A DNA stretch of 44,900 bases from Phycisphaerae bacterium (GTDB lineage: Bacteria; Planctomycetota; Phycisphaerae; Sedimentisphaerales; Anaerobacaceae). Made by a program: the position numbers and the translations under genes. Positions 2,227 through 44,282 of the stretch are shown here, piece by piece (positions within the stretch are counted from its first letter, which is position 1; each line of letters starts with the position of its first letter). Under the pieces are notes generated by a model. The model did not search any database. It had not been told where the DNA came from and saw only the letters and a list, made by a program, of their open reading frames with translations. The stretch lies in assembly GCA_016782755.1 (NCBI GenBank), contig JADHXY010000003.1, positions 1 to 44,900 of the forward strand, read 5' to 3'.

Positions 2227-2261
2227 GTTTGAGTTTATAAAATAATTGTTTTAACCAATAA

Positions 2262-2305: not shown

Positions 2306-2316
2306 CAGAGGTTGCT

Positions 2317-3185: not shown

Positions 3186-3385
3186 GTTTATAGGACCCTT
3201 AAAAAATAATAAAAACATCTCTCTCAAAGCAATCGTCGATTCCGATAAAAACCCTTATTGTTTGTTGATTCGGCTGTTTTTTGACCGATTTTTCAAGCCT
3301 TGAGAATTAGTAAACTTAACATAAAAACCGCCGCTTTTAATGACGAAAAAGATTAATGACATGGAGATTTTCTAAGGATAAATGT

Positions 3386-4759: not shown

Positions 4760-4767
4760 GATATATT

Positions 4768-6680: not shown

Positions 6681-6690
6681 GGGATAATTT

Positions 6691-7266: not shown

Positions 7267-7279
7267 GAGTTTGAGCGAG

Positions 7280-22282: not shown

Positions 22283-22297
22283 AATTTGGCGACTCAG

Positions 22298-22326
22298 TTG
22301 CACTTGGGAGTTGAATCCGCTAAAAT
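22298..22326 (+). promoter_or_regulatory. Sigma-70-like promoter for the sulfatase gene
   Basis: TTGCAC (22298-22303) and TAAAAT (22321-22326) are spaced by exactly 17 bases. Transcription would start about 32 bases before the ATG, leaving room for the AGGAGGT ribosome site. It suggests the sulfatase is transcribed separately from the ATPase gene upstream. Confidence 0.5.
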
Positions 22327-22365
22327 AGATTTAAATAGGAAATATTACTTAGGAGGTTTGGTATA

Positions 22366-23865: not shown

Positions 23866-23913
23866 CGATTTGTGCTTATTAATTGAATATGCTAATGTTT
23901 AGCGGCTGAGAAT

Positions 23914-24606
23914 TTATGAGTTTAGCAGGCTCTCTGGTTTCAGGGCGAGGGGTTGGTCGGCTATGAATGGTTCGCCGTATGCGGAGTTTATTGTCAGGCC
24001 GAAGAATTTTGCGATAGTAACGGTTTTATTTAAGAGATTTGCTGGTGAAGATGGGGATGCGTTTTTTATCTGGCTTTTATAGCATTTGACGGCATTGATT
24101 TTTTCCTGCCAGGTATCGCTGATGTCGATAACGAATGTTGGCTGGGGGTATTGGAATCGGTGTTGCGAGATATAGAAAATCAGCTTGCCTGTCCAGTGGG
24201 GTGTGCCTTTGAGGTCGGTTTCATGGTATTTTGCTTCGAAGCGAGCGGCTTGGACTAATTCGGTGGCGGCGCAATGATCAGGATGCCAGTCGATCTGGAA
24301 GGGTGTGAATAGGATGTCGGGTTTGTTTAGCCGGATGAGTTCTGCTATTTTTCCCCGGTTTTCGATTGTATTCCCAATTCTTCTGTTGGGTAAGTTCAGG
24401 CATATTCTTTTTTTTATGCCTAAGATGCGGGTTGCCTGCTGGGTTTCTTTTGTTCTGATCTCTGTTGAACCATGCGGTGTCGGTTCTCCGTTTGTGAGGT
24501 CGATTATTATGACGTTCCAGCCGTCGTGTACCATTTTTACGATAGTGCCTGCCATTGCTATTTCTGCATCATCGGGATGCGGGGCGATAATTAAAACTGT
24601 TTTCAT
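23914..24606 (-). CDS. bshB1: PIG-L family deacetylase, BshB1-like
   Basis: A 230-residue PIG-L/LmbE zinc deacetylase. The metal motif is HPDD (His10-Asp13), completed by WHPDH (His108-His111). The body matches BshB1 rather than generic PIG-L: DLTNGEPTPHGSTEIRTKE, then ILGIKKRICLNLPN, and the ending YGEPFIADQPLAL, all at the expected positions. BshB1 removes acetate from GlcNAc-malate in bacillithiol synthesis. It lies 8 bases after a BshC-like gene, which supports the pathway, but no BshA (GT4) gene is present in the window. It is the last gene of the second secretion operon. Confidence 0.8.
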   Translation of the reverse strand: MKTVLIIAPHPDDAEIAMAGTIVKMVHDGWNVIIIDLTNGEPTPHGSTEIRTKETQQATRILGIKKRICLNLPNRRIGNTIENRGKIAELIRLNKPDILFTPFQIDWHPDHCAATELVQAARFEAKYHETDLKGTPHWTGKLIFYISQHRFQYPQPTFVIDISDTWQEKINAVKCYKSQIKNASPSSPANLLNKTVTIAKFFGLTINSAYGEPFIADQPLALKPESLLNS

Positions 24607-24614
24607 TTTTTTAC

Positions 24615-26084: not shown

Positions 26085-26808
26085 TGGCGGCTAATTCCCG
26101 ATCTATGACATTTAAATAATACTCGAGCCTGAAGGCGTCTGAGCTTAAAAGGCCGGCGAAGTTTCTGTTAGGGTCATGGTAGATAAGTGGGACGGATATT
26201 TCGCAAAATTTTAGTCCTGCCCTGGCGGCTTGTATCCAGAGCTGGAGGGGGAGTGCGTAGCCTTTTTCGGTGAGGTTGAGTTTTCCCAGTGACTCGACGC
26301 GGTAGGCCTTGAAACCGCAAAAGGCATCGCTGATGTTAAGGTTCAGCGAAGTATTCAGTATATTGGTAATTTCCTTGTTGATTTTGGCCCTGTTTGGGGG
26401 AGGGGTGATATGGTTTTGGGAATCGGGGCAGAGGTATCTTGAGCCACTGATGATATCGGCGCTGTTTTGCTCGAGTGTTGCAAAAAAATGAGGTAAATGC
26501 GATGGCTGATGCTGGTAGTCGCAGTCCATTGTAATTATCCAGTCGTATTTTTGTATCAGGGCATAATCGAATGAGTCGATTATGCTTTGGCCGTAGCCGA
26601 GATTTTTTTTGTGAGTTATTACTTTTATCGTTTTTTTGTTTCTTAGCAGTCTTTCTGTGCCGTCGTCGCTGCCGTCGTTTACGATAAGAATATTTTCCGC
26701 ATACTTTGCGGTTTGAGCGATTATATCGTTAATGTAACGGCGTTCATTAAAGACCGGAATAGCAATGAGTGTTTTATTCGGTGCGGTATTTTTATTTTTT
26801 CCTGTCAT
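26062..26808 (-). CDS. Family 2 glycosyltransferase (dolichyl-phosphate mannose synthase-like)
   Basis: A 248-residue cytoplasmic GT-A enzyme without membrane segments. The nucleotide-sugar motif begins LIAIPVFNERRYI; the second is LIVNDGSDDGTERLL; the DxD is MDCDYQHQP; and a GSRYL motif follows. This pattern matches DPM1-like polyprenyl-phosphate glycosyltransferases. It could make the lipid-linked sugar donor for the Agl23-like GT39 protein at 34665, which is a reasonable but unproven link. It overlaps the secretin gene by 17 bases and the BshC-like gene by 23, so it is co-transcribed with both. Confidence 0.88.
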   Translation of the reverse strand: MTGKNKNTAPNKTLIAIPVFNERRYINDIIAQTAKYAENILIVNDGSDDGTERLLRNKKTIKVITHKKNLGYGQSIIDSFDYALIQKYDWIITMDCDYQHQPSHLPHFFATLEQNSADIISGSRYLCPDSQNHITPPPNRAKINKEITNILNTSLNLNISDAFCGFKAYRVESLGKLNLTEKGYALPLQLWIQAARAGLKFCEISVPLIYHDPNRNFAGLLSSDAFRLEYYLNVIDRELAANDHKNAR

Positions 26809-29320: not shown

Positions 29321-29330
29321 AATTACCTCG

Positions 29331-29834
29331 TTAAAGATGCAGGGTTACTTTGTGATCGATAATAGATATTTCAACGGTTTTATTTTTTTTATCAATATCA
29401 AGGACGGTAAAAAGGTCTGATATAGAGTCGCCGATCTGACATTTTTTCAGGCCCATTCCCTCAATGTTGATGTATGCCGTCGGAGCAGAGTTTAATTCCA
29501 TTACGCATTTTAGCTTTAGCTGATTTTTTATTCTTTCTATAGTTTTGTCAGCTATGGGGCGATCGGATATTTTGGAATCGGATTTGAAAAAGCCAGTTCT
29601 GAAATTAAAATCATCAAGTATAAGGTTGTTGCTGCTGCTGAAGAAATTGGGTTCTGCTATGTAGGAGTCTGGTCTTGGGGGGTTTAGCTGGTTTGCGTTT
29701 TGTAAGGGTAGAGGTTTTAGGAGTTCGGTTACAGCCGACAATACAAGTACAAGTATAAGGGCCGACATGAGCAATTGGACCGTTTTTAATGCTCTGTAAC
29801 GTTGCGAGAAATTTTTTATGTAATTATTTATCAT
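29331..29834 (-). CDS. GspC/PilP-like inner-membrane clamp protein
   Basis: A 167-residue bitopic protein with a membrane segment at about 20-37 (VQLLMSALILVLVLSAV), a Pro/Asn-rich linker, and a C-terminal small beta domain. That domain (LKLKCVMELNSAPTAYINIEGMGLKKCQIGDSI) resembles the homology region of GspC and PilP, which binds the N0 domain of the secretin. Its position between the GspM and GspD genes fits. The first cluster has no counterpart. The gene overlaps the GspM gene by 4 bases. Confidence 0.7.
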   Translation of the reverse strand: MINNYIKNFSQRYRALKTVQLLMSALILVLVLSAVTELLKPLPLQNANQLNPPRPDSYIAEPNFFSSSNNLILDDFNFRTGFFKSDSKISDRPIADKTIERIKNQLKLKCVMELNSAPTAYINIEGMGLKKCQIGDSISDLFTVLDIDKKNKTVEISIIDHKVTLHL

Positions 29835-30379
29835 ATTATTTTAGAGTCATTTTTTTGAACTATTTTGCTGATTACCAATGAGACTGTTATATTGTCTCTT
29901 GAGTCCTGGGCTTTTAGATCTAACTTTTCTATTCTGATTGGCTGAGAGTGTTTTTCTATCGAAAGGACAAATTTGATGAAATCTTTTATGCTCGCATTCG
30001 TTTCTATTTTAATAGATAGCAGCGAGTAATGAGTTTCGTTTGTCGGGGGCAGTATTTTAACGGATTTTATTTCCAGGTTGGATTTGGAATACAGCTGGTC
30101 AAGCAGACGGGCAAAGTCGGAGATTTGCTGCTGGTATGAGCCATCGGCTGCGATTAGAGGTTCTGCCTGCTGATACAATTTTTCGATCCTGTCTTTAATC
30201 AGGATATTTCGTTTTGCTCTTGTCAGTTCGATCTTTAATTCGACAAGTTGGTTTTTGAGTGTTTTTTGTTTTTTCATCTCCGGCTCAATTACGAGAGTAA
30301 AGACGGCGGCTGTTGTTATTATTACGCCAGCAAGTATAGCTAATATTTTTTGACGGTTTTTGAATGTTATTGTTTTCAT
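29831..30379 (-). CDS. GspM/PilO-like inner-membrane protein
   Basis: A 182-residue protein with a membrane segment (ILAILAGVIITTAAVFTLVI, about 12-31), a coiled coil (about 33-70), and a small alpha/beta periplasmic domain. This is the PilO/GspM layout; these proteins form a heterodimer with GspL/PilN. It overlaps the neighbouring GspL-like and GspC-like genes by 4 bases each (ATGA pattern), so the three are coupled. It is the equivalent of the protein at 6691 in the first cluster but shows little obvious sequence similarity. Confidence 0.75.
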   Translation of the reverse strand: MKTITFKNRQKILAILAGVIITTAAVFTLVIEPEMKKQKTLKNQLVELKIELTRAKRNILIKDRIEKLYQQAEPLIAADGSYQQQISDFARLLDQLYSKSNLEIKSVKILPPTNETHYSLLSIKIETNASIKDFIKFVLSIEKHSQPIRIEKLDLKAQDSRDNITVSLVISKIVQKNDSKII

Positions 30380-31776
30380 AAGCCGTTTTGCTCCACACGG
30401 CAGTTTGCTTTGAATTCTACAATGCTTGTGCCCGCTTTTGGAATTTGCTGTACGTTTGTGATCTGCATGTTTTTAAGTATTTGTGTTTTTTTCATAGCCG
30501 ATGGATATTCGAGGGCATTTGAGAGTGTTGAGGATTGCCCCTTTATACTGATATCTGCTGTATAATTGTCTGCGGAAAAATTTATCTGGCTTATTGAGAT
30601 ATATTGCGGGCTGAATTTGTAAAGTTCGGCGAATAATGCTGATATCAGTCCGCGAGTTTTGAATTGTTTTTTCAATCCTTTTACACATAAGTTTTTAGCT
30701 TCGATCTTTTCCGATATGTCTTTGATAGGCTCGATTTGTTTTTTGATGATTTGGCAGGCATGCTGCAGCCGCCAGCTTTTTAATGCTAAGCCGGACCATA
30801 GAGAAAAAATCATTGTTACAGCCAGCACAGCCGTAAGTGCTGTGTTTAATATCTTTTTTTTGTTCGCCCTTTTTTTTAGTAATTCACGGGGCAGCAGATT
30901 AAAGGATTCCAGATCGGGCGATTCTGCGGACTTGAGCATCCCTTCAGTTAGAGCCGCATGATAGCCGTAATCGCTGTTGTCTATCGATTTGCCGCTGTTG
31001 AAATCGACAGGTTGCGGCAAAGGTAAAAACTCTATATTTTCAAAAACATCTTTGAGATGTGTTTTAATTTTTTGAAGATATTTTTTTGTCGAACTTATTT
31101 TTATTTTGATATTCTGACGGCTGTCCTGTTGGATATCCTTTATTGATTCACAAAGCTCGGTTTTGAGCAGTTCGATGTTTTTGGGAATGGAGTTTTCTGT
31201 GAGGATAAAATTGTCCGCTTTTTGAAGATAGCCATTGCAGTTGTGCAGGATCAAAAGGGCATTGTGTGAGAATAGCACATTTAGCTGATGTGCCTGATTT
31301 TGAGATGTTTTGTCGAACCAGCACATGGCTGCCTGAGAGTCAATAATAGCTTTAGATGGTGCTATCATTGAGTTTTTGTAATTTACCAGATTTTTTTCGA
31401 GGTTATCGATCCTGAGTATATACAGCAGCAGTTCAAGTAAATTGGCCTTTTGTTTTTTAGATACGCATCCCCAAACGACGTCTTCGATCTCAAGAGGCAG
31501 CAAAGATGGAATTTCAAACTCAAGCATTTTATATGCCTGTTTGAGGTCATTGGCAGGGATTTGGACATTTTTACATATACATAAATCGTCTTCGATAGAT
31601 ATGATCCAGTTTTTTACGTTGAGCAGTTTTTTCTGAATGGCTTCTTTGATTTTCTCGCAGTTTTCGAAATAAAAGTGCTTAAATAATGTCCCATTTTTCA
31701 GGCATACAACGGCAGAGCCATCGGGCAGTATTTTTATTGAGGCAAGGTTTGAGTTGATTTTATTTTTCGCCGTCAT
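30376..31776 (-). CDS. gspL: GspL-like (PilM-PilN fused) assembly protein
   Basis: A 466-residue protein: residues 1 to about 290 look like a divergent actin-like cytoplasmic domain. It is followed by the PilN-type stretch FNLLPRELLKKRANKKK, a membrane span at about 312-332, and a periplasmic ferredoxin-like domain (ISISQINFSADNYTADISIKGQS). The layout is that of GspL. It anchors the ATPase to the inner membrane. It is encoded between the GspK and GspM genes with 4-base overlaps at both ends. Confidence 0.78.
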   Translation of the reverse strand: MTAKNKINSNLASIKILPDGSAVVCLKNGTLFKHFYFENCEKIKEAIQKKLLNVKNWIISIEDDLCICKNVQIPANDLKQAYKMLEFEIPSLLPLEIEDVVWGCVSKKQKANLLELLLYILRIDNLEKNLVNYKNSMIAPSKAIIDSQAAMCWFDKTSQNQAHQLNVLFSHNALLILHNCNGYLQKADNFILTENSIPKNIELLKTELCESIKDIQQDSRQNIKIKISSTKKYLQKIKTHLKDVFENIEFLPLPQPVDFNSGKSIDNSDYGYHAALTEGMLKSAESPDLESFNLLPRELLKKRANKKKILNTALTAVLAVTMIFSLWSGLALKSWRLQHACQIIKKQIEPIKDISEKIEAKNLCVKGLKKQFKTRGLISALFAELYKFSPQYISISQINFSADNYTADISIKGQSSTLSNALEYPSAMKKTQILKNMQITNVQQIPKAGTSIVEFKANCRVEQNGL

Positions 31777-32801
31777 ATGAGCCTCTCAACGCAAAGAATT
31801 TTGCAGGTTTGGTCGTCAACTCTCAAGCTTGCCATTAACATGCATCGCTGCTGGCCGGATTTGGCATATGAGAAAATCCGGTAAGTATCAGAATCAAAAC
31901 AGCAGTACTGAGTGAGCAGTTCGAGCTGAATGTCACTTATCCCTGGTATATTAAAAATATCCTCGGTTTTTTCTATCGGCATATCGTCATCAGTCCCCAA
32001 TGAACCATCGGGGCCTGAGCGATAGTTAAGGACGGCATCGACGGTTTGCTGCTCAATTGCCACAAGAGCAGCAAGTATGTTCGCAGGTGCTGTATTTATA
32101 TTAACAGTTGAATCGCCATAGACAGTGAACATGTCGGTTAAAGTCATGGGTTGGTTGTCAGGGTTTGAGAAAAGTTCTTCGGTGTCATCGGGTTCGTATT
32201 CGCTGTTTTTTAATTCCTCCCATGTGTAGTTATCTGTGCTTATACCTTTTATGAACGTCAGTTCCCTAATGGTCACCAGTGGGGCATTTTTGCAATTGTA
32301 AAAAGGTTGGGTACTGCTGTAATAATCAACTTCGGCACCAGCGGGGTTGGCTTGCGAGTCACTGTCCTGCCAGTCCAGGATACATGCTGTTTGCTCGTCG
32401 CTGATTTCGAAATGTTGCCAGCTTGCCGGGTCCGATTTGTTAATGTCCAGATAACCTTTTTCGTCTCTGATCCAGCATACAAGTTTCGGCTCTTCATGAT
32501 TCTCAAGGTTTAGGTTACTAAATAGCGTTCTGTTTTCTTCGATGCTGAAGAATTTACAGACTCCGGCGTTTTTTGTTTCGTCTTGTCCTGCTTGCAGTAG
32601 TTGCGAGCGGCACCGTTCAATACCGGCTATTGCAAGATGCCATGCTCTTGTTTTTTGTGCTGCGGAATTTGTGAGTTTGATCTCTATTCGCAGCTGGTAA
32701 GCCAGTGAGTAGGCGATTATCGCGATATTTGAAACCACGATAAGCACTATTATTAGTACACTGCCCCTGCTGAGCCTGTTTTTTTGAGCGTTTTTTGTCA
32801 T
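31773..32801 (-). CDS. gspK: Minor pseudopilin GspK
   Basis: A 342-residue GspK. The N-terminal helix follows SRGSVLIIVLIVVSNIAIIAYSLAYQ and, as usual for GspK, lacks Glu at position 5. Family signatures are DWQDSDSQANPAGAEVDYY and VNINTAPANILAAL, the latter a helix-hairpin-helix motif. GspK caps the pseudopilus tip with GspI and GspJ. Preceded by a 108-base gap after gspJ that holds no gene I can support. Confidence 0.92.
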   Translation of the reverse strand: MTKNAQKNRLSRGSVLIIVLIVVSNIAIIAYSLAYQLRIEIKLTNSAAQKTRAWHLAIAGIERCRSQLLQAGQDETKNAGVCKFFSIEENRTLFSNLNLENHEEPKLVCWIRDEKGYLDINKSDPASWQHFEISDEQTACILDWQDSDSQANPAGAEVDYYSSTQPFYNCKNAPLVTIRELTFIKGISTDNYTWEELKNSEYEPDDTEELFSNPDNQPMTLTDMFTVYGDSTVNINTAPANILAALVAIEQQTVDAVLNYRSGPDGSLGTDDDMPIEKTEDIFNIPGISDIQLELLTQYCCFDSDTYRIFSYAKSGQQRCMLMASLRVDDQTCKILCVERLI

Positions 32802-32909
32802 AATAACGTAATAATTTCAGCTAAATTTCTGATAACGTCCTGTAGTTATAGTAGCGAAGCCGGCGCAGGGATTGTTGATTAGGAAATTATATTTTTCTCA
32901 GGAGCAGCA

Positions 32910-33578
32910 TTAATTGTCATTAATCGGGTTGTCGCTTAATATCTGGATGCATGCCTGAAATGGGTTTGTTTGCTGGTTGTATTTGACTTCGATTTTTATC
33001 GCAGGCGGCGGGGACTTGGTGCTTTCGATATTATCTTTCCATGATAAGGTATTTGAAAGATCATCTGGCTCAGCCGCAAATACTTTGAATTCTGATATTT
33101 GCTCGAAAATTACTTTCTCGTTTTCGGCTCCGATGGGGACTTGTCCTGAATAAAGCTGTTCGGTTCTGACCAGCTGTTTCTTTGACGAGTCGCCGTCGGA
33201 CTGGAGTTTATAGCAGACCCTTGCCGGATAACCGCATTGAGCTGAGCTGTTCCGTGCGGGGTTGAGAGTAAAAAAACAGATAGAGGTTGTTTGCTGGTTG
33301 GTGGAAATGCTGAATGGTGCGATTACCTCCGATTCTTTGATTTTTGGAAAATATGCACACCCCAGTTCCTCCCGAAGTGTGTCGATCAGAAGCCGGTTTT
33401 TCTGGTTTATGCGGTTTTGGCCCTTTATTTTTGACCATGCAGAATTGGTTTGCTTGATGGCTGCATTGAGACCTAATATCAGCAAAGAACTTATCGTAAT
33501 AGCAATAAGTATCTCAACCAGAGTAAAGCCATCTGCCCCGGCAACGGTTTTTTTTAATGTTTTCGACATAGTCCTCAT
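32910..33578 (-). CDS. gspJ: Minor pseudopilin GspJ
   Basis: A 222-residue prepilin. Cleavage is expected at ADG/FTLVEILIAIT, with Glu at mature position 5. After the helix the stretch KNRLLIDTLREELGCAYFP, and a C-terminal beta domain, match GspJ. It is part of the tip complex with GspI and GspK. The start overlaps the gspI stop in an ATGA arrangement; a second ATG four codons in is possible. Order H-I-J-K is that of classical T2SS operons. Confidence 0.9.
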   Translation of the reverse strand: MRTMSKTLKKTVAGADGFTLVEILIAITISSLLILGLNAAIKQTNSAWSKIKGQNRINQKNRLLIDTLREELGCAYFPKIKESEVIAPFSISTNQQTTSICFFTLNPARNSSAQCGYPARVCYKLQSDGDSSKKQLVRTEQLYSGQVPIGAENEKVIFEQISEFKVFAAEPDDLSNTLSWKDNIESTKSPPPAIKIEVKYNQQTNPFQACIQILSDNPINDN

Positions 33579-33982
33579 TTGCCCTGTAATACAGCCGGTA
33601 TATGCATCACTGATATTAATTGGTACTCTTTCGGTATTTGGTTCTGGAGCCAGCTGATTTTTACTGCCACAGCCACCAGATTGTCAATTTCTGTCGGGGA
33701 CACCTGGATTTGCCAGTTGAACTTGCTTTCTTTGCCTTTTGTGGTTTCATATGAAATGTTCTTTTCGAGCCGTTTTTCGTTAAGCAGACTCTCAGCCAGA
33801 ATTGCAGCCCCGGCGATGTTTGTATTGCTATTGCTTGCTCTTATGCACATGCTCAGAACACCGAAAACGGCGAGAAGCGACGTAGCCATAATGGTCATAG
33901 CTATTATTATCTCGACCATAGAGAAACCGCCGGCTGTGATTTTGCGGGTTTTGTTAAAAATTTTGATCTTTGATTTCAACAT
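33575..33982 (-). CDS. gspI: Minor pseudopilin GspI
   Basis: A 135-residue prepilin with processing site AGG/FSMVEIIIAMTIMATSLLAVFG (Glu at +5). Length, the EKRLEKN region and a C-terminal VKISW stretch match GspI, a tip pseudopilin that nucleates the pilus. It overlaps gspH by 29 bases and gspJ by 4, so all three are translated as a unit. Confidence 0.88.
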   Translation of the reverse strand: MLKSKIKIFNKTRKITAGGFSMVEIIIAMTIMATSLLAVFGVLSMCIRASNSNTNIAGAAILAESLLNEKRLEKNISYETTKGKESKFNWQIQVSPTEIDNLVAVAVKISWLQNQIPKEYQLISVMHIPAVLQGK

Positions 33983-34436
33983 ATCTCGAATTTATATTTA
34001 TAGTGATCATCATATCTTCTGCCGCAAAGGTCAAATAACCATCGGGCCATGGAATTTCAGGATCGAAAACAAAAAAATAGGTATTTTTTTCCTGCTCGAA
34101 TCCTTTGGAATCGTAAAGCTGAATGTTTCCAATAAATCTTTCTTTTCTTGTGAAATCATTAAGAGCCTCAAAATGACCTTCATTTTCTTGCTGGAGGTAA
34201 TAGCTTGAATATTTGCTGTCGAACACAAATTTGGTTTTTTTGTTATCTTTTTCCGCCAGGTCGATAGCATACCTGATAGTTTGTGCGATATCATCGCATG
34301 CCTGCCGCATCTTCAGACCCTGATTGCTTCGCTTGCAAAAAGGCAACGCTATGGTTACCGACACTGAGATGATCATAAGAACCACCATCAGTTCAACGAG
34401 TGTAAACGCCCTAAAATTTCGTCTTAAGCTGAACAT
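33954..34436 (-). CDS. gspH: Minor pseudopilin GspH
   Basis: A 160-residue prepilin. The cut site FRA/FTLVELMVVLMIISVS has Ala rather than Gly before the cut, as does the H-type pilin of the first cluster. After the helix, ACDDIAQTIRYAIDLAEKDNKKTKFVFDSKYSSYYL is typical of GspH. It is the first gene of the minus-strand T2SS operon; an AGGAAA site lies before the ATG. A G-type major pilin gene, normally next to gspH, is absent, so it must be elsewhere in the genome or shared with the gene at 1918. Confidence 0.9.
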   Translation of the reverse strand: MFSLRRNFRAFTLVELMVVLMIISVSVTIALPFCKRSNQGLKMRQACDDIAQTIRYAIDLAEKDNKKTKFVFDSKYSSYYLQQENEGHFEALNDFTRKERFIGNIQLYDSKGFEQEKNTYFFVFDPEIPWPDGYLTFAAEDMMITININSRYVEIKDQNF

Positions 34437-34664: not shown

Positions 34665-36284
34665 TCACTCCTCTGCGACAGTTCCTGACGGATTAAGCTT
34701 CGCTTGAGAATCTCGAAAATTATCCCACAAATCCTTCGTTACGAACCCGAGCAATTCGATCCTCGGTCGCAAATACATCCGCTGCTCAAACAAAGGAACG
34801 TATAAATTTCGCTCGCCCGGCGGCGGCAGTTCGTACAACTTATTCAACAATTCGCTCTTCACGTCAGCCGAAGCAATAATCAAAGGTGCACTCGGAGACG
34901 TTTCATCAACATGGCTCCACCAACCCACCCTGCTAAAATCACGCAGATACCAAGGGAGCGGCCAGTAATCAGCTCCGGGGCAGATAACCTGAATATACAT
35001 ATCATTACCTTCGGGATGCACGGCTGCTATTTGTCTTATTCGCTGGGTCATTTCAAAAACATCAACACTCGGATGAGCATATACATACGGATTGCGAGGG
35101 TCTGTATCATACTTATAAATCCCCAAACAGCTCTGCCAGCTAAGCCACACCACAGCCGCTGCCAAAACCAGTACCACCAAGCACCGCACCATAAAAGTTC
35201 GTGCCGACCGAATCAATTCCACAGCCGCAAAACCGGCCAAAAGAATCATTCCGTGCAGAAAGCCCAGCAAACACCATGGCGTCTTATAAGGAATCGCCGA
35301 ATACAAAACTGCCAATATGACCGTATAAAAGGCGATAAAACGAACAAAGCCCACATTAAGCTTAGATAAATTTCTCGACCTCATAGCCATAACAAAACCA
35401 ACGACTGCCAGCACTACGATCACTATTTCGCTGGAGATCGAAAGGAACATATACTCACAATGAATTAGCGTCTTGAAGTAATAATACCACTGATGGTCAT
35501 GGACTCCGCTTCCGCCAGCCCTGAACAAGTACGACCCATAAGCCCGAACAGAAGCCGGCACACCCGGAAGATTGGTAAAAAATGACGAATAGAATAACGC
35601 CGAAGTAATACAGGCCGTAAAAACTGCGGCTATAACATGGGGCAGCTTTATGATCTTAGTGAATCGTGAAATAGAAAAATCTTGTGGACGTTGCAGCATC
35701 ACCGTAAGTATAATGGCAAACAGCATCGAAGCAAAAACCAGGACAAAAGTCTCCTTGGTTGCGTGACACAGGCCAAAACACACACCAGCCAGCAATGCCC
35801 AATAAATGTTCTTGCCTCGCAAATAGCGATAGCCGCAAACAATTACACCAAAGCTAAAACAAACCAGCAGCATTTCCTGAATATAATAGCGGCTGAAAAA
35901 AACGAACGCAGGCGATACAGCCGTCGCTACAGCCGAACACACCACCGCCGCCCTACCCATACCGTCAATAACAAACAAAAGCAGCAGAACCAACACCGTG
36001 CCAAAAAAAACTGGCACTATCCTTAAAGTGAATTCATTAATTTGCGTCAGTCTCTCTGCTCCACTTAACCAGGCCGGAAGCAGAGTCAGGTAATTCAGTG
36101 TTGGACCGTGATATTCAAAAGGGTCGTAACGGTAAACACCCTCTTCGAGCAGTTTTCCGAATTTAACAGCGTGTACTGCCTCGTCTCCATGCATCGGACG
36201 GCGATCAAGTCCGCCTATGCGCAAAACAAATGCAGCAATTGTCACCATCAGCATGATGACAAAGATTTTTTTAGGGTTGCTCAT
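34665..36284 (-). CDS. GT39-like membrane glycosyltransferase, Agl23/TIGR03663 family
   Basis: A 539-residue membrane protein with about ten hydrophobic segments. The N-terminal MHGDEAVHAVKFG and DPFEYHGPTLNYLTL stretches match the TIGR03663 (flippase-associated Agl23) family, related to GT39 protein glycosyltransferases; the DE pair is the likely catalytic site. The C-terminal roughly 160 residues are soluble. It probably transfers a polyprenyl-linked sugar on the outside of the inner membrane. It is coupled to the discoidin-like lipoprotein gene by a 4-base overlap, so the two may act together. Confidence 0.85.
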   Translation of the reverse strand: MSNPKKIFVIMLMVTIAAFVLRIGGLDRRPMHGDEAVHAVKFGKLLEEGVYRYDPFEYHGPTLNYLTLLPAWLSGAERLTQINEFTLRIVPVFFGTVLVLLLLFVIDGMGRAAVVCSAVATAVSPAFVFFSRYYIQEMLLVCFSFGVIVCGYRYLRGKNIYWALLAGVCFGLCHATKETFVLVFASMLFAIILTVMLQRPQDFSISRFTKIIKLPHVIAAVFTACITSALFYSSFFTNLPGVPASVRAYGSYLFRAGGSGVHDHQWYYYFKTLIHCEYMFLSISSEIVIVVLAVVGFVMAMRSRNLSKLNVGFVRFIAFYTVILAVLYSAIPYKTPWCLLGFLHGMILLAGFAAVELIRSARTFMVRCLVVLVLAAAVVWLSWQSCLGIYKYDTDPRNPYVYAHPSVDVFEMTQRIRQIAAVHPEGNDMYIQVICPGADYWPLPWYLRDFSRVGWWSHVDETSPSAPLIIASADVKSELLNKLYELPPPGERNLYVPLFEQRMYLRPRIELLGFVTKDLWDNFRDSQAKLNPSGTVAEE

Positions 36285-37060
36285 TTCACGGGTTTGCCGA
36301 AAACCTCAACCTCAATATAGTGATTCAATTCATCAACGTTACTGCCGTTGCTATAAAACCGAACATAACGACCGCGAACGCCCTTGGCATCTATAAGTTT
36401 GCCCTCGTGGGTATCGATATAATGTTTGTCCGTACCAATACCCAAACCGGCAGAGTTGTCGATATCATTATTAAACACAGTAGCAACGTCTGTAATGAAA
36501 TCAGGATCATTCGCCACCTGCACAACTACATCAAAATACACCCTTACCTGAAGATGATAGTGCCACAACAAAATAGCATAAATATTTTGTTCTGCCCCGA
36601 GGTCGATGGTAATGCTTTGCAGTCCCGGACCCAACTCCACATAACTGCCGTCGACTGCCTCTTTATCTCCATCGTTGACCATATCGATCTCACCGATCAC
36701 AGGCTCTTCATCGCTGCTGGCAATCGACATACCCGCGGCAACATTGGTGGTATCAGCCGGCACATAAAATGGTGGCCGGGCATGACCAAGCGGCTTCTCT
36801 AAATTTTCCACTCCCTGCAAACTCTGCGGAGTTCCTACAAAAGCAGGTTCCGGCAATTCAATCGAAAGCTCAACAGCCCCCAATGAACTCTCCTTAGTCT
36901 CAGCGGATGAATTAGCCTTGGCCTTAACAGACGGACTCTCCTTAGTGTCAACGGATACATTGTCCTGTGGGGCTTTCTTGCATGAGCAAACAAAAAAAAC
37001 TGACCCCACAAACAAAATTGCGAAAACAACAATTCTCAAACGACGACGAATACCAAACAT
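36281..37060 (-). CDS. Lipoprotein with discoidin-like domain, similar to the NqrC tail
   Basis: A 259-residue lipoprotein. A signal sequence (VVFAILFVGSVFFVCSC, Cys27 or Cys25) is followed by a Ser/Lys/Glu linker with repeated KES units. A beta-sandwich of about 145 residues ends the chain. That domain (YVELGPGLQSITIDLG, LLWHYHLQVRVYFDVVVQV, FNNDIDNSAGLGIG, RYVRFYSNG) is F5/8-type C (discoidin)-like. It is about 40-45% identical by hand alignment to the C-terminal domain of the NqrC homologue two genes upstream. The start was set at 37060, where GAGGAG lies 7 bases upstream; the frame is open to a TTG at 37174. It likely sits at the membrane with the NQR-like complex. Confidence 0.8.
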   Translation of the reverse strand: MFGIRRRLRIVVFAILFVGSVFFVCSCKKAPQDNVSVDTKESPSVKAKANSSAETKESSLGAVELSIELPEPAFVGTPQSLQGVENLEKPLGHARPPFYVPADTTNVAAGMSIASSDEEPVIGEIDMVNDGDKEAVDGSYVELGPGLQSITIDLGAEQNIYAILLWHYHLQVRVYFDVVVQVANDPDFITDVATVFNNDIDNSAGLGIGTDKHYIDTHEGKLIDAKGVRGRYVRFYSNGSNVDELNHYIEVEVFGKPVK

Positions 37061-37185
37061 TACAAATCTCCTCTGAAAAAAAACAAAAAGGGCACACTGC
37101 ACAGCCACGGCAATCCCGAAACCATGCGGTAACGCTAAATGACCACTCAAGCCATTCAGCGCCACGCTATTCAATTAATATAAAT

Positions 37186-38343
37186 TTACATCTTACCCAG
37201 AACCAATGCCAGAATAATCAACAGCACACACGCGGGAACCAAAAGTTTCAAACTCTTTTGAACCGATGAACCCTTGGCCATATTGCCAATTGCCTTAGGC
37301 ACAATCACCGCACCAAGCAAACCTATCGCAAAGATAATACCAAAAACACTGCCTCGAATTTCAGGACTGAATTTGGAAAACGCAACTCCCACCGTTGTGG
37401 GAAAACACGGTGCAAAGAAAAGACCGCCAAGAATCGCCAGCACCTGCGCCTGCATAGCACTTTTGCTCACCGTCATAGCCAGGATGATTAGCAATGCCGC
37501 CAGCGCTGCCCCGGCAATAAACCAGCTTCCATACGCTGTAATACCCGGTATCTGACTTGCGATCAATCGGCCTGCCATCATAGCAACCGCAAACAACGAT
37601 AGCAGTCGCTGTGCGGAAGCATCAACCGAATCAGAATCGGCACCCGGTTTGGATTTACTAATTACTTCCTTGCCAAAAGGTGGAAGCCAATTACAAAATG
37701 ACGATTCCAGACTGATATAACAAAAGAGCACAAATCCGGCAATCCAAACAACGGGGTTAGCAAGAAGCGAAAAAGCATCCTTAAGTGCAAAACCAGCCTG
37801 GCTCTGAGGATATTTCGCCATCAATGCAAATACTACAGGAATCAGCAAAATCACACCTAATACCGAAATAGCTTTTTCATAAGAGGTCTTCCTAAAAAGA
37901 AAACTAACAATCAAAGGGGTCAGAAAAAGCCCAAGTCCGAAGAAAACATTGATTAAATTGCTTGCAGCCGCTGCATTCTCACCACCAAACAAAACAAGCG
38001 GCCCCATCACATTACCCGCTGTATTCAGAGCCATCGCACCAAAGCCCAGCAGCAGACAGGGTAAAAGAACTGTCAAGTAAGTTTTGCCATTGGCAAATAT
38101 AAAAATACAAATCGCAGTCGCAATAAAACCAAAGATCGCCACAGGTTTATATCCGATCTTATCCACAACCACGCCGGAAATCAACGAGGCTATCAAACAG
38201 GAAAGCATAAACATTGAAATAAGTGAGCCAAACTTGCCCTGGTCGATTTTCAGCCGAGGCATCAATTTAACGCTGATTGACCCTAACAACGAAAAACACA
38301 TCCCTAATCCAAACACACATGACAACGCTACAATTTTTTCCAT
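37186..38343 (-). CDS. Major facilitator superfamily transporter
   Basis: A 385-residue protein with about twelve membrane segments. The loop VVDKIGYKPVAIFG between TM2 and TM3 is an MFS motif A variant. Substrate unknown; similarity in style to sugar or small-acid permeases is only an impression. AAGGAT precedes the ATG. It lies 74 bases after nqrC and 125 bases before the lipoprotein gene. The 125-base gap ends in a T-rich run that could be a weak terminator. Confidence 0.85.
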   Translation of the reverse strand: MEKIVALSCVFGLGMCFSLLGSISVKLMPRLKIDQGKFGSLISMFMLSCLIASLISGVVVDKIGYKPVAIFGFIATAICIFIFANGKTYLTVLLPCLLLGFGAMALNTAGNVMGPLVLFGGENAAAASNLINVFFGLGLFLTPLIVSFLFRKTSYEKAISVLGVILLIPVVFALMAKYPQSQAGFALKDAFSLLANPVVWIAGFVLFCYISLESSFCNWLPPFGKEVISKSKPGADSDSVDASAQRLLSLFAVAMMAGRLIASQIPGITAYGSWFIAGAALAALLIILAMTVSKSAMQAQVLAILGGLFFAPCFPTTVGVAFSKFSPEIRGSVFGIIFAIGLLGAVIVPKAIGNMAKGSSVQKSLKLLVPACVLLIILALVLGKM

Positions 38344-38417
38344 TTTAGGTAATCCTTTCCCTTAAATAAACATAATGTCCGACTGCCAATATCTCTACTA
38401 ATTTATAATTTGTCAAG

Positions 38418-39629
38418 CTATTTACCGTAAACAGCTATCTCAACAAATCTCGTTTCCTCCTCAGCAGCTCCGCCGTTCGTATAGACCCGCACATACCGCG
38501 CCTTCGTACCTTCGTTATCCGGGCCGCGAGCATCTGCGATCTCACCCCACCAGCGAGCGTAGTAAGAAGTATCCTCACCTATACCCTGACCGGCGGAATT
38601 ATCGAAATCATTATTGAAGAGAGTTTGAACATTCTCGGTGAATTCGCTATTGTCACAAATCTGAACGATCACATCGTTGTATATAACCGGATTCTTATAA
38701 TAGTGCCATACAACCACCGCAAAAACATCATATACCTGCCCAAGATCGACCTGCACCCAATAAGGCCCCGGATCCAGTTCTACATAATCGAACTCATCAC
38801 TTTTCTTGATACCGTCGGTGATCTGATCGAATTCACCGATAATTGGTTCTTCCTCCATATTGCTTGTTACGGTTTTACCCAATGCAAGGTTTTCCAACCC
38901 CGGCGGTGTCATAAACGATCCGCGGCGAACCTCTTCTCGCAAATTCGGCGGTATATTAGTATTTTTCGGATAGCCCGGCGTAGCACGTGTCACCGCATCG
39001 ACTCCGAGTCCAAGATCAAGATCCTGTATCTCAACCCCGCCCGAAAGGTACTGTGCAATTGTCTCATTGATAATTTTAACAAGTGAGTGAGTTGTTTTTG
39101 ATGCGCCGGTAATTCCATCAATAACATTCGGACCTTTCTCGCTCGAACTTATAACCAGCCCGGGCGTACCATTTGTCACAAGCGGTTTGTCAGCAAACTG
39201 GCTCAGCCATTCCGGAGACGAAATCAGCCCGCCAAGACCCGGCGTTTCATTTTGCTGATAAATCAACAGGGAAAGAATTTTCCTACTATCGGGTGCAACT
39301 GCCAATATGCCTTTAATCATGCCATACTTACCACGACCGAGAACTTCAAGAGCATATCCGATAACCTTGCCGTCTCTACTGCCCTCGTAAAGTTCCATCT
39401 CACTTATTTTTTTAGCTGTAACCGACTGGTTATAAATATCAACGATCTGGTTATGACTCAAACTCCCATCGCCAAGCCCCAATGCCATTACCAACGCAGA
39501 AATTCTACTGAAATTCTCGTTTGCCGAAATTCGCCTCTGCAACTGTGTGTTCGCAAAAGTAAGAACAGTCGCACAAACACAACTCAAAACGACCGTAAAG
39601 CCAAGTGTATAAAATTTACTCTTTTTCAA
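38418..39629 (-). CDS. nqrC: NqrC-like flavoprotein subunit fused to a discoidin-like domain
   Basis: A 403-residue protein, far longer than NqrC (about 257). Residues 1-230 are NqrC/RnfG-like: one N-terminal membrane span, ETPGLGG near residue 130, and the flavinylation motif D-G-I-T-G-A-S (Ser177 as expected FMN attachment residue; Ser in place of the more usual Thr). From about 247 to the end comes a discoidin-like beta-sandwich, on the outer side of the inner membrane by NqrC topology. I place the start at TTG 39629 because GAGGG lies upstream at normal spacing and it overlaps nqrB by 14 bases; ATG 39644 is possible. ApbE, needed for flavinylation, is not in the window. Confidence 0.9.
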   Translation of the reverse strand: MKKSKFYTLGFTVVLSCVCATVLTFANTQLQRRISANENFSRISALVMALGLGDGSLSHNQIVDIYNQSVTAKKISEMELYEGSRDGKVIGYALEVLGRGKYGMIKGILAVAPDSRKILSLLIYQQNETPGLGGLISSPEWLSQFADKPLVTNGTPGLVISSSEKGPNVIDGITGASKTTHSLVKIINETIAQYLSGGVEIQDLDLGLGVDAVTRATPGYPKNTNIPPNLREEVRRGSFMTPPGLENLALGKTVTSNMEEEPIIGEFDQITDGIKKSDEFDYVELDPGPYWVQVDLGQVYDVFAVVVWHYYKNPVIYNDVIVQICDNSEFTENVQTLFNNDFDNSAGQGIGEDTSYYARWWGEIADARGPDNEGTKARYVRVYTNGGAAEEETRFVEIAVYGK

Positions 39630-40538: not shown

Positions 40539-41630
40539 TTAGAACTCATCGTAAAAGATCAAATCTTTCGGAACATTTTTTTCCTCAAGCACTTTTGTTA
40601 CCGCCTCAATCATCAACGGAGGACCACACAAAAAAGCCTGTCTGTTACCATTACCGTCACCATTAACATGCTTCGCAACGCTTTCATGAATATAACCTCT
40701 CTCCCCCTGCCACGGAGACGAATGCTTCGGATCAGAGAGGGCATAATGCACCTCAAAGTTTGACATCTCATCAGCCAGCTGCTCAAATTCTTCAAGATAC
40801 ATAATATCTTCCATCGTTCGAACACCAAAAAACAGCTTGCACTTTCGCTGCGGAGAAACATCACCGATATGCCGAATAATAGACCGCATTGGGGCGATCC
40901 CACACCCGCCGCCAACACATATTAATTCCGTCTCGACATCCTCCTCCAGTACAAACTCACCATAAGCCCCAGTGAAAATCACCTCTTCACCGACCTCAAC
41001 TTCATGCAGATACGTCGACCCAAGTCCATCCGGTATAAGCCGAATCACAAGTTCAACCTCATCTTTAGTACTCGGCGGCGAACTTATAGAATAAGCCCGA
41101 AACGTTATCCCGTCTGACGAGGGCACTTGAACTTGTATATACTGACCCGGCACAAAGTTAATCTCCTGCTCATCTGCAAGTTTCAAAACAACATGCCTTG
41201 TATCGTGAGTAACCATCTTCGCCGCAATAACAATAGAACGGAACTGCTGGATATCAAGATATTCCGGCTTAACTCTCAGAACAACATCCTGCTTAACCTT
41301 AATACGACAGGCAAGACGAGTATTGTCGGCAAGTTCAGATTTGTCCAGATACGGCATTTCCGTCGGCAAAACCGGACCGCCCCCTTCAAACACATTTACC
41401 TTACAAAAACCGCACGTACCCTGACCTCCGCAGGCAGATGGAATAAAGATTTCCTGCTCATACAATGCTTCCAGAAGCGTACATCCGCCTTCAACTACAA
41501 ACGGCTCCTCATCATTAACGCTAATTTCGCAAGGGCCATAATCAGCCAAAAACCTGTCGGCGATCAGCAGTAATAACGCCAGACCTCCGCCAAGTGAAGA
41601 CAAAACAATCAATGCGTACAAATAAATCAT
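40539..41630 (-). CDS. nqrF: NqrF: NADH dehydrogenase subunit with 2Fe-2S and FAD domains
   Basis: A 363-residue protein. Its N-terminal membrane anchor (1-25) is followed by a plant-type ferredoxin domain with Cys67, Cys73, Cys76 and Cys108, the spacing of NqrF. A ferredoxin-NADP+ reductase-like module then has RAYSISS for FAD and GGGCGIAPMRSI and CGPPLMIEAV for NADH. It accepts electrons from NADH and passes them to the membrane subunits. Typical NqrF is about 408 residues; the missing part is mainly inside the reductase domain. Its presence means this is an NQR-type rather than an Rnf-type complex. Confidence 0.95.
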   Translation of the reverse strand: MIYLYALIVLSSLGGGLALLLLIADRFLADYGPCEISVNDEEPFVVEGGCTLLEALYEQEIFIPSACGGQGTCGFCKVNVFEGGGPVLPTEMPYLDKSELADNTRLACRIKVKQDVVLRVKPEYLDIQQFRSIVIAAKMVTHDTRHVVLKLADEQEINFVPGQYIQVQVPSSDGITFRAYSISSPPSTKDEVELVIRLIPDGLGSTYLHEVEVGEEVIFTGAYGEFVLEEDVETELICVGGGCGIAPMRSIIRHIGDVSPQRKCKLFFGVRTMEDIMYLEEFEQLADEMSNFEVHYALSDPKHSSPWQGERGYIHESVAKHVNGDGNGNRQAFLCGPPLMIEAVTKVLEEKNVPKDLIFYDEF

Positions 41631-41647
41631 AATTTCAATCGCATTCT

Positions 41648-42268
41648 CTAAATATCCACCATTCCTGCAAAACCCATAAACGCCATAGCCATCAGCCCGG
41701 TAATGAGCAGCGTAATCCCAAGACCCTGCAGCGGCTTCGGAACATCAGCATACTCAAGTCGCTTGCGCAAACCCGCCATCAGGCAAATAGCCAGCAGCCA
41801 TCCCATCCCGGAACCTAACGCATAAGCTGCCGTTTGCACAAGGTTAAACTGCCGATCGGAATCTATCATAAGCAGGTTCACACCAAGTATCGCACAGTTA
41901 ACCGTAATAAGAGGCAAAAAGATACCGAGCTTGTAATACAGCACAGGGCTGAATCGCTCGATTACCATTTCAACCAATTGAACAAATCCGGCAATAACCA
42001 TAATAAGCACTAAAAACGTAAGATACGTCAGATCTGCCCCACAAAGCGGAGCATCCTTAACCAACACACCGTAATAGATACCGTAGTTTAGCAAAGCGGT
42101 TGTGAATGTCACTAATGTAACCGCAACCCCCATCCCCCACGCTGTACGCAAATCCCTGGATATAGCAATAAAAGAGCACATGCCCAGGAACTTTGAAAGA
42201 AGTATGTTATTAGTGAGAATCGCCGCCAATAAAATAACAGCCACGCCACCGACAGAAGAATCCATCAT
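41648..42268 (-). CDS. nqrE: NqrE/RnfA-like membrane subunit
   Basis: A 206-residue integral membrane protein with six segments, normal length for the family. The two conserved cysteines that hold a membrane 2Fe-2S centre with NqrD are present: KFLGMCSFIAIS (Cys31) and LITVNCAILG (Cys125). It begins 2 bases after the nqrD stop and is followed at 17 bases by nqrF. The order D-E-F-B-C differs from the usual A-B-C-D-E-F. Confidence 0.95.
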   Translation of the reverse strand: MMDSSVGGVAVILLAAILTNNILLSKFLGMCSFIAISRDLRTAWGMGVAVTLVTFTTALLNYGIYYGVLVKDAPLCGADLTYLTFLVLIMVIAGFVQLVEMVIERFSPVLYYKLGIFLPLITVNCAILGVNLLMIDSDRQFNLVQTAAYALGSGMGWLLAICLMAGLRKRLEYADVPKPLQGLGITLLITGLMAMAFMGFAGMVDI

Positions 42269-42270
42269 AA

Positions 42271-42918
42271 TTAATGTGCCCCCTCATGTCCTGCCGAATG
42301 CAGGTCAGGCCAGATAGCTTTAACTACCCACGCAACAATACCCATTGCCAAAAACGCTCCCGGAGCCGCTCGAACAAGCCCGATCGGCATAAAACCCTGC
42401 GGCATAACCGCATATCCCAGAAGAGTACCATTACCCAGCGGCTCGCGAATCAGCGAAATCACTAACAGTACCAAAGCATATCCGATAGCACTTCCCAAGC
42501 CGTCGAGAAACGACATAACCGGGGTATTACGAACAGCATAACTTTCGCAGCGTCCCAGAATCAAACAGTTAGTAATAATCAAACCAACATAAGGCCCCAA
42601 CGCCCTGCTCATATCATAGAAATAAGCTTTCAAAAACAGATGAACCAGAATCACCAGCATGGAAATGATAAGCATTTGTGCAATCAGCCTGACCCGGTGC
42701 GGTATCACATTGCGTAACAACGACACCGCTAAAGTACTCATCGATGCGACAAAAAGCAACGCACCGCCCATCACTAACGTCGTAGACACAAAACCAGTCA
42801 CAGCCAGTGCCGAGCAAACGCCCAAAGCATGGCAAAGCACCGGATTCTCAGAGCCGATACCATTGCTAACAGGTTTTATAAGTTTATTGCATGTACAACC
42901 GATGCTACAATTCGCCAT
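42271..42918 (-). CDS. nqrD: NqrD/RnfE-like membrane subunit
   Basis: A 215-residue six-segment membrane protein. GVCSALAVT (Cys35) and LIITNCLILGRCESYA (Cys118) are the conserved cysteine loops that pair with those of NqrE. The N-terminus has extra cysteines (NCSIGCTC) not typical of the family; a role is unknown. AAAAGGA precedes the ATG. First of the NQR genes, 38 bases downstream of the Gfo/Idh/MocA gene; there is no nqrA between them or anywhere in the window. Confidence 0.94.
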   Translation of the reverse strand: MANCSIGCTCNKLIKPVSNGIGSENPVLCHALGVCSALAVTGFVSTTLVMGGALLFVASMSTLAVSLLRNVIPHRVRLIAQMLIISMLVILVHLFLKAYFYDMSRALGPYVGLIITNCLILGRCESYAVRNTPVMSFLDGLGSAIGYALVLLVISLIREPLGNGTLLGYAVMPQGFMPIGLVRAAPGAFLAMGIVAWVVKAIWPDLHSAGHEGAH

Positions 42919-42956: not shown

Positions 42957-44282
42957 CTAAACCTTGTAATCCTCCGGCTTAAAACTATGCTTAGCACCGG
43001 CCTTAATAGCACCAATAACATTCAACACCGACACCGCCGTCGGATAAGCAACCTCTGCCGGGCATGTAAGTATCTTCTTATCGCCAGCACTAATAGCATT
43101 GAAAAAGTTCTCCAAGTGCAACTGATGAATGCTCTTTTCTTTGAGCACTGCCATAGCCTTTGCGGCGTCCGGCGTTTTCTTCGCAATAGCCCCGATCAAA
43201 GGAACAGCCTGATATCCGCTCTGTTCGATCTTTTCAACTCCCTGCATCCACACAGGAATCTCCTTACCCCGCTCCGGAACGTAATAACACTTTTTCTGAT
43301 CCTCAGAAATGGTCAATGTCCCCTCATCGCCACTAAAACGTTCGAAATAACTTCCAAAACCGTTGGTATTGAGAACTTGATAAAACGCCCGTACCGAACC
43401 GGATTTGCCTTTGTGCTTATAAAGATACTCATAAATCACCATAACATCTTCATACCAACTCCGCCCCTCGTAGTAATCACTGCCTCCTACAGCCATAACC
43501 GAGGCCGGATCGTTATGCAAAAACCAACTGAAAATATCAATCTGGTGACTGCCAAGGTCTGCTATCGGACCGGCTGAAAATTTCTCATACCAACGCCAAT
43601 TCCGAAATCTATCCATTGTATCGTAACCGTATTTCTTGAGGACATCAGCAGACATCTCATATTTATCCGGCCACTCTAATTTCGGCCCAACCGCACGGTT
43701 CCACTGACCATAACAATTTGTCAGCCGACCGCAAATCCCATCCTTGTCGATAAGCTCCAATGCATATTGATAAACGGGGTTACTCCGTCGCTGATGACCG
43801 ATCTGAAGAAACTTACCGCTTTGCCTTTCGGCAAGAACCATCTGAAGAGCAGAATCAAGAGTATTGGACATTTCCTTTTCACAATACACGTGCAGACCCG
43901 CCTTCAAACACGCAACTGCATGTTCCGCATGAACCCAGTCAGGTGTGGCTACTATCACCGCATCGAGATCTTTTTCCTTTTCCAGCATCTCTCGATAGTC
44001 GGCATAGGTATTAACTTCGTGTTTGTATGCCTTAAGACGCCTGCTGGCATATCGCTCACTATAAGACCAGATATCGCAAACCGCCTTGAAACGAACATTT
44101 GGAATATTCAAACAGTCTTTAAGAAGTATTCGCCCCTGCGTACCCGCACCGATAATTGCAACATTAATTTCTTCTGCCGAACCACCTCTGCCCACACCCC
44201 TAACCACCGGAGACAATACCAGCCCCGCACCAACAATTGCGCTCGAACGCAAAAAAGTCCGCCTGTTTATTCCTTTTTCCAT
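42957..44282 (-). CDS. Tat-exported Gfo/Idh/MocA family oxidoreductase
   Basis: A 441-residue protein. The N-terminus has a Tat signal (NRRTFLRSSAIVGAG). The Rossmann domain starts VAIIGAGTQGRILL, with VIVATPDWVHAEHAV and HVYCEKEMS. The last stands in place of the usual EKP motif, but keeps the Lys that helps catalysis. The C-terminal domain is of GFO_IDH_MocA_C type. It should oxidise or isomerise a sugar derivative using a bound NAD(P), which must be carried through Tat. An AGGAGAG ribosome site lies 11 bases upstream. It precedes nqrD by 38 bases, so an operon with the redox complex is likely. Confidence 0.93.
   Translation of the reverse strand: MEKGINRRTFLRSSAIVGAGLVLSPVVRGVGRGGSAEEINVAIIGAGTQGRILLKDCLNIPNVRFKAVCDIWSYSERYASRRLKAYKHEVNTYADYREMLEKEKDLDAVIVATPDWVHAEHAVACLKAGLHVYCEKEMSNTLDSALQMVLAERQSGKFLQIGHQRRSNPVYQYALELIDKDGICGRLTNCYGQWNRAVGPKLEWPDKYEMSADVLKKYGYDTMDRFRNWRWYEKFSAGPIADLGSHQIDIFSWFLHNDPASVMAVGGSDYYEGRSWYEDVMVIYEYLYKHKGKSGSVRAFYQVLNTNGFGSYFERFSGDEGTLTISEDQKKCYYVPERGKEIPVWMQGVEKIEQSGYQAVPLIGAIAKKTPDAAKAMAVLKEKSIHQLHLENFFNAISAGDKKILTCPAEVAYPTAVSVLNVIGAIKAGAKHSFKPEDYKV

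Follow-up and report, generated by a model that had tools for sequence, protein, structure and literature searches.

A variant NQR with a discoidin-like NqrC tail and its possible role as an electron bridge to an exported sugar oxidoreductase

In Vibrio cholerae, Na+-NQR carries electrons from NADH through the FAD and the 2Fe-2S cluster of NqrF and the 2Fe-2S cluster of NqrD/E to the FMN of NqrC, and from there through the FMN and the riboflavin of NqrB to quinone (PMC10643135). A review of the RNF and NQR complexes from 2025 calls the cofactors of their membrane subunits strictly conserved (PMC12174285), and a 2014 study of NQR evolution dropped fused or chimeric sequences before tree building (PMC4014512). 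Passages of Meheust et al. 2021 (PMC8238504) describe partial NQR/RNF-like flavinylation systems, in which the flavin path of NqrB/RnfD is fused to an NqrF-like domain, and extracytosolic redox systems in which flavin and cytochrome modules replace one another. Here, we analyze a stretch of 44,900 nucleotides (the window) from a Phycisphaerae bacterium of the phylum Planctomycetota (assembly GCA_016782755.1, contig JADHXY010000003.1; a draft assembly, 84.6% complete). It holds an operon for an NQR whose NqrC subunit is fused to an additional C-terminal domain, together with genes for a Gfo/Idh/MocA-family oxidoreductase (GFO), an MFS transporter, a lipoprotein (Lpp) and an Agl23-like glycosyltransferase.

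The loss of NQR parts, the gain of the NqrC tail and the co-inheritance with GFO suggest a previously undescribed link between external sugar chemistry and the NADH pool. Judging from these sequence features, we lean towards the view that the variant NQR does not serve as a quinone reductase but carries electrons across the membrane, as a bridge that connects NAD(H) with an exported sugar oxidoreductase. The partner is most likely the GFO that heads the operon, which carries a signal for export by the twin-arginine translocation (Tat) route.

The NqrC tail and its lipoprotein relative

The nqrC open reading frame (positions 38418-39629, minus strand) uses TTG as its start codon, aligned to the Met found in its relatives, and encodes 403 amino acids. 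A single transmembrane helix precedes the FMN_bind domain (PF04205, E 1e-8; residues 100-191), and a linker joins this to the domain at the C-terminus (residues ~240-403). A preliminary description of this DNA had proposed that NqrC carries an extra domain after its flavin domain, that this tail lies on the periplasmic side and that a lipoprotein nearby has nearly the same domain at 40-45% identity, and we accept all three statements. The C-terminal domain of NqrC is 42% identical to that of the lipoprotein, with the WHY, FNND-DNSAG-GIG and RYVR motifs in common, and a BLASTP comparison of the two proteins gives 140 bits (E 1e-43) across 251 amino acids. Since the similarity extends into the linker that precedes the domain, most of the mature lipoprotein is represented in NqrC.

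The Pfam model F5_F8_type_C_2 (PF22633) scores 23.7 and 23.4 bits in the two proteins against a cut-off of 27.8, which lowers their membership by sequence only; the F5/8-type-C label therefore rests on fold. AlphaFold2 models (pLDDT 93.9 for NqrC, 87.0 for the lipoprotein) match solved NqrC at Z 21 and CBM32/F5-8C modules at Z 17-18 (17.9 and 17.1). These matches came from fold comparison alone, as a sequence search of the PDB with the domain profile returned nothing significant (best E 0.36). Both domains are thus confidently predicted to adopt the discoidin/CBM32-like (F5/8-type-C) beta-sandwich, in line with the discoidin-like fold that had been suggested for them. Eighteen domain positions, including W308, H309, N339, N340, D341 and D343, are conserved at 95% or above in NqrC-type and lipoprotein-type domains alike. 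In the domain tree, 9 NqrC-type domains separate from 62 lipoprotein-type domains with support 100, and by this measure the two are old, separate clades. This separation rejects a recent local duplication of the lipoprotein as the origin of the tail.

Two loci (L052 and L053) encode free-standing domains of the NqrC type, as exported proteins whose neighbors carry Tat signals. The lipoprotein domain occurs in tandem or multi-domain copies as well (L023, L065, L099; G012:C472, G033:C150, G031:C49); such open frames reach 738 amino acids, and some have no Agl23 nearby.

In a sample of 60 relatives and in 392 genomes from the phylum, the full-length fusion was found in the window only, and no other NqrC match entered the tail. 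These samples suggested that the fusion was unique to this genome, a conclusion that was ruled out when a scan of GTDB genome contigs revealed five fusions in Lentisphaeria and one in another planctomycete (L051). Full-length fused NqrCs, 44-61% identical, are present in 16 of 198 genomes of the class Lentisphaeria, to which L049 belongs; in the genome G476, NqrC has two CBM32-like domains in a single open frame (L190:7811-9904). In the second planctomycete, the fused NqrC lies directly between GFO and Lpp, which are followed by Agl23 and an ApbE-like frame (L051:6424-12316). A sequencing or binning artefact might be suspected, since the assembly is a draft and the fusion is missing from every sampled relative within the family, but its recurrence in independent genomes, once on a 5.7 Mb contig, contradicts an assembly error, and we give an artefact next to no probability. 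The sequences place the fusion as a shared trait of one NQR subtype, found mostly in Lentisphaerota. The preliminary description had called a tailed NqrC unusual, and we agree.

Electron path of the fused NQR

The gene order is (D)EFBC in 16 of 16 fused Lentisphaeria loci, as far as their contigs extend. The entry side is kept in the fused systems, with the 2Fe-2S, FAD and NADH domains of NqrF, the Cys motifs of NqrD and NqrE and the flavin motif of NqrC all present. This last motif reads DGITGAS, placing a Ser acceptor where the DGLSGAT motif of V. cholerae has T225.

NqrB is altered at the sites that continue the path. Each of the 13 fused NqrBs aligned, that of the window included, has a deletion of the FMN loop, which in V. 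cholerae holds the covalently bound FMN at T236 (motif DGYSGAT). The riboflavin ligands T162 and N200, taken from PMC10643135, are replaced in all 12 fused sequences that span these positions, and the acid of the Na+ path, E157, is Gly in 12 of 12, which makes Na+ movement doubtful. D346 is retained. In unfused planctomycete NqrBs, E157, T162 and N200 are retained in 8 of 8. NqrA had no match beside any of the 16 fused Lentisphaeria loci, and the ATP[LM] motif was absent from the NqrBs read; neither the window genome nor five fused Lentisphaeria genomes contained an NqrA above cut-off, as far as draft genomes can show. The L051 genome has an NqrA-like match, which belongs to a second, ordinary-looking NQR (L141) separate from its fused NqrC. 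As a check on quinone-less hosts as the reason for the NqrB loss, we looked for UbiA (PF01040) and found it in 23 of 24 genomes, too uniformly to inform on the question. By sequence, the path from NADH to the FMN of NqrC appears intact, and the known exit to quinone appears to be gone.

The preliminary description had pictured a tail that tethers the redox complex. The tail is real, but because the subtype has also lost NqrA, the FMN loop and other site residues of NqrB, the core change lies in the electron path, and not in a tether added to an otherwise normal complex. The loss of NqrA and of cofactor and ion-path residues in NqrB could also mark a degenerate NQR that is heading for loss, with an incidental tail. 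However, the same NqrB losses recur and NqrC, NqrE and NqrF are intact across genomes as divergent as the range of NqrC identities indicates (44-61%), and the window copy was apparently gained together with GFO, in a tight operon; we consider degeneration very improbable.

Two further observations concern the flavin and NQR-like genes of the window genome. It encodes an ApbE with an N-terminal hydrophobic stretch (G000:C53:586-1446) that could flavinylate NqrC, and it also contains an RNF-like cluster with matches to RnfC, D, G, E and A (G000:C8:5868-10041).

The exported oxidoreductase and the clusters around it

GFO has a Rossmann N-domain and a Gfo C-domain (PF01408/PF02894/PF22725), and a twin-arginine signal was found on 15 of the 15 GFOs scanned. 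DgpA and glucose-fructose oxidoreductase are among the solved structures nearest to GFO. Similarity to the glycoside 3-dehydrogenase BT_2158 family is weak, at 96.7 bits against an NCBIfam equivalog cut-off of 750.

With at most eight candidates scored per genome, a GFO orthologue was found in 15 of 198 Lentisphaeria genomes, 13 of which have a fused NqrC, two a heptahaem cytochrome and none both. Fisher tests give p 7e-16 when GFO is paired with fused NqrC and p 3e-19 when it is paired with either module, both values being inflated by shared ancestry. The GFO tree has 15 NQR-type rows, among which the L051 gene appears twice, set apart from 27 cytochrome-type rows with support 100. The split follows the redox module and not the phylum, with the planctomycete window and L051 grouping with the Lentisphaerota NQR type and the GFO of one Lentisphaerota genome (G466) falling among cytochrome-type planctomycetes. 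The GFO of the window is 67% identical to a Lentisphaeria GFO and 54-55% identical to those of planctomycetes of its own family, whose MFS, Lpp and Agl23 its neighbors do resemble, unlike GFO. This points to acquisition of GFO and NQR as a block, and the simplest reading of these comparisons is that a GFO-NQR block replaced GFO and cytochromes in the lineage of the window.

The cytochrome-type arrangement can be seen in two genomes of the window's family, G011 (L086) and G015 (L095), where the order is GFO-heptahaem cytochrome c-cytochrome b561-MFS-Lpp-Agl23-ApbE; the NQR thus occupies the place of the cytochromes. Across many phyla, a conserved cluster of GFO, cytochromes, Lpp, Agl23 and ApbE has the heptahaem cytochrome and cytochrome b561 where the window has its NQR. 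In L086, the heptahaem cytochrome c and, after it, the cytochrome b561-like protein are encoded at 5743-8339, with GFO on one side and the lipoprotein on the other. The heptahaem cytochrome, which has seven CxxCH motifs in 25 of 32 open reading frames, is present in G001, G011 and G015, lies between GFO and MFS-Lpp-Agl23 in the last two, and had no match in the window genome or the fused genomes. Neither it nor Agl23 had a convincing solved relative by sequence.

Homologues of the lipoprotein are on record from Planctomycetota, Kiritimatiellota, Verrucomicrobia, Acidobacteria, KSB1, Bacteroidota, Ignavibacteriae, Neomarinimicrobiota and Aminicenantes. Of 63 scored loci, 51 have Agl23 downstream of Lpp at a distance of 3.2 kb or less, and 30 of 45 have an ApbE in the vicinity. 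Where the sequence extends far enough upstream (46 loci), the cytochrome c is encoded in 25, the cytochrome b561 in 25 and GFO in 26, all of these cluster gene counts being lower bounds for divergent members. The ApbE homologue of the cytochrome-type clusters (L054-L124, for example L086:12162-13148) has no signal peptide at the readable N-termini among 44 open reading frames. The lipoprotein and the proteins of the cytochrome-type clusters were considered as ApbE substrates and rejected, as the D..[ST]GA[ST] motif occurs in none of them.

These clusters bear on two other roles for the tail. It could bind the lipoprotein, which would then be a scaffold that gathers membrane complexes. A further protein or domain of the same family occurs in 15 of 16 fused Lentisphaeria genomes, adjacent in several loci, and the NqrC of G476 has two such domains, yet the cytochrome-type clusters carry the lipoprotein without a tailed NqrC, making a scaffold quite unlikely in our estimate. 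Alternatively, the tail could be a carbohydrate-binding module by which the NQR is held on a glycan of the envelope or a polysaccharide under degradation, with some other periplasmic acceptor and with GFO as a mere neighbor in the pathway. The best structural matches are sugar-binding CBM32-like modules, the lipoprotein nearly always adjoins a membrane glycosyltransferase, and the window encodes sulfatases elsewhere. However, a shared fold proves no function, the standalone L052 and L053 domains adjoin Tat-signal proteins and not glycan-assembly genes, and both the co-inheritance of GFO and the split of its tree by redox module point to a redox partnership, so that we hold a glycan anchor to be unlikely, if worth keeping in view. 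The preliminary description had sought the partner in the lipoprotein or the glycosyltransferase. These do belong to the same system and form a conserved pair in most loci across many phyla, but co-inheritance gives better support to GFO.

Members of the Gfo/Idh/MocA family such as glucose-fructose oxidoreductase, which is Tat-exported with NADP bound, hold their nicotinamide cofactor tightly, and GFO-type enzymes would therefore need a route for electron exchange. Because the known quinone exit appears to be lost, electrons in the proposed bridge would have to pass to or from a periplasmic partner. From the composition of the system, its lost and kept cofactor sites and its co-inheritance with GFO, we infer a path in which electrons would be exchanged among cytosolic NAD(H), NqrF, NqrD/E and the FMN of NqrC on the periplasmic face, and between this FMN and the nicotinamide bound in periplasmic GFO. 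The CBM32-like tail most likely docks GFO, the sugar substrate of GFO or the related lipoprotein, which would place the partner near the FMN. Flow could be outward, from NADH to GFO with reduction of a keto-sugar, which should be downhill. It could also be inward, with sugar oxidation feeding electrons into the cell, as suggested by a 3-keto-glycoside gene in some clusters; in L086, a 3-keto-disaccharide hydrolase/xylose-isomerase-like gene adjoins GFO.

Several points weigh against the electron bridge. A tail is not a general requirement, since the electron carriers of the cytochrome-type clusters lack one. The GFO gene of Lentisphaeria does not adjoin the nqr genes, no GFO orthologue was detected in three fused genomes (which may be incomplete), and L051 has no dedicated NqrBDEF next to its fused NqrC. 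The support is computational, and the absence of NqrA was judged in part from incomplete genomes.

The genes of the window operon follow one another in the order GFO-nqrDEFBC-MFS-Lpp-Agl23, with successive gaps of 38, 2, 17, 2, -14, 74, 125 and -4 bases (Table 1). The assignment of the glycosyltransferase as Agl23-like, made in the preliminary description, agrees with its TIGR03663 score of 210 bits against a cut-off of 126.

Table 1. Features of the operon, by position in the window.
Feature	Position	Strand	Evidence and remarks
Gfo/Idh/MocA-family oxidoreductase (GFO), first gene of the operon	42957..44282	-	PF01408/PF02894/PF22725; twin-arginine signal motif MEKGINRRTFLRSS
NqrD	42271..42918	-	Rnf-Nqr PF02508, NqrD models; [2Fe-2S] Cys motifs retained
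NqrE	41648..42268	-	PF02508; TIGR01940, 221 bits; Cys motifs retained
NqrF (2Fe-2S, FAD and NADH domains)	40539..41630	-	PF00111, PF00970, PF00175; TIGR01941, 261 bits
Short NqrB, 306 aa, without FMN loop	39616..40536	-	PF03116; aligned against NqrB of V. cholerae and against unfused relatives
NqrC transmembrane helix and FMN-binding domain, residues 1-200	39030..39629	-	PF04205; model matches solved NqrC at Z 21
NqrC flavinylation motif DGITGAS, acceptor position Ser177	39099..39119	-	Aligned with V. cholerae NqrC T225 motif DGLSGAT
Linker from NqrC FMN domain to tail (LGLGVDAVTRATPGYPKN...)	38913..39029	-	Kept in other fused NqrCs and in standalone L052/L053
NqrC C-terminal F5/8-type-C (CBM32-like) domain (predicted fold)	38418..38912	-	BLASTP; AlphaFold2 fold matches; own clade in domain tree
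MFS transporter	37186..38343	-	PF07690; found at the same position in the cytochrome-type clusters of this family
Lipoprotein (Lpp) with F5/8-type-C domain (predicted fold)	36281..37060	-	Lipobox ...FVCSC; fold match; homologues in many phyla
Agl23-like GT-C glycosyltransferase, 4-base overlap with Lpp	34665..36284	-	TIGR03663

Elsewhere in the window, two sulfatases (PF00884 with SGSH_C) are encoded at 10074-11417 and 22366-23865, which fits degradation of sulfated polysaccharides. Two groups of type II secretion/type IV pilus-like genes (629-8701 and 20570-34436) share this one 45 kb contig, with T2SSF, PilM/PilN and a secretin toward one end and T2SSE, pseudopilin-like genes and a second secretin toward the other.

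Comparison with known systems

A literature search that covered few subscription journals found no account of an NqrC-discoidin fusion, of the fused NQR type or of the gene cluster. As a tentative proposal, somewhat short of even confidence, the sequences may define a new NQR-derived class, a bridge between NAD(H) and a periplasmic sugar oxidoreductase that would bypass quinone, use the tail for docking and be exchangeable with a heptahaem module in a widespread cluster that had no description in the literature searched. The fused set consistently breaks the strict conservation of cofactors, with the entry kept, the exit removed and an outward-facing domain added, and so offers a natural experiment on which NQR parts serve electron entry and which serve quinone reduction and ion pumping. 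The cluster, which occurs in Planctomycetota, phyla related to Verrucomicrobiota, Acidobacteriota, phyla related to Bacteroidota and others, points to an exported sugar oxidoreductase that redox modules, exchangeable for one another, apparently wire to the membrane. Since many of these bacteria are regarded as degraders of complex polysaccharides, the substrate of GFO is a testable question with ecological weight.

Compared with the Na+-NQR of V. cholerae (NqrABCDEF), the fused type has homologues of NqrB through NqrF and shares the NqrF domains, the NqrD/E cysteines and the NqrC flavin motif. It differs in having no NqrA, the order DEFBC, an NqrB without the FMN loop, T162, N200 and E157, a CBM32-like tail on NqrC and Ser for Thr at the NqrC flavin site. 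The partial NQR/RNF-like systems, as described in passages of Meheust et al. (PMC8238504), keep the NqrB path, whereas the fused type appears to keep the NqrDEF path and lose that of NqrB; in the window, NqrB and NqrF are encoded by separate genes, without an NqrB-NqrF-like fusion. Module swapping as treated in the same passages has a likeness here, as a flavin carrier and a cytochrome seem to interchange beside the same enzyme. The present case differs in its enzyme, which belongs to the Gfo/Idh/MocA proteins, and in its flavin module, which is a whole NQR variant; neither was found in those passages.

The tail and the lipoprotein share a predicted fold with CBM32/F5-8 type C domains (Z 17-18), but no Pfam family reaches its cut-off in them, and they are carried by a redox subunit and an Agl23-linked lipoprotein. 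Finally, the GFO of the window has its Gfo/Idh/MocA domains in common with glucose-fructose oxidoreductase, DgpA and the BT_2158 family; similarity to these is low, and the window enzyme is set apart by its tie to a membrane electron module.

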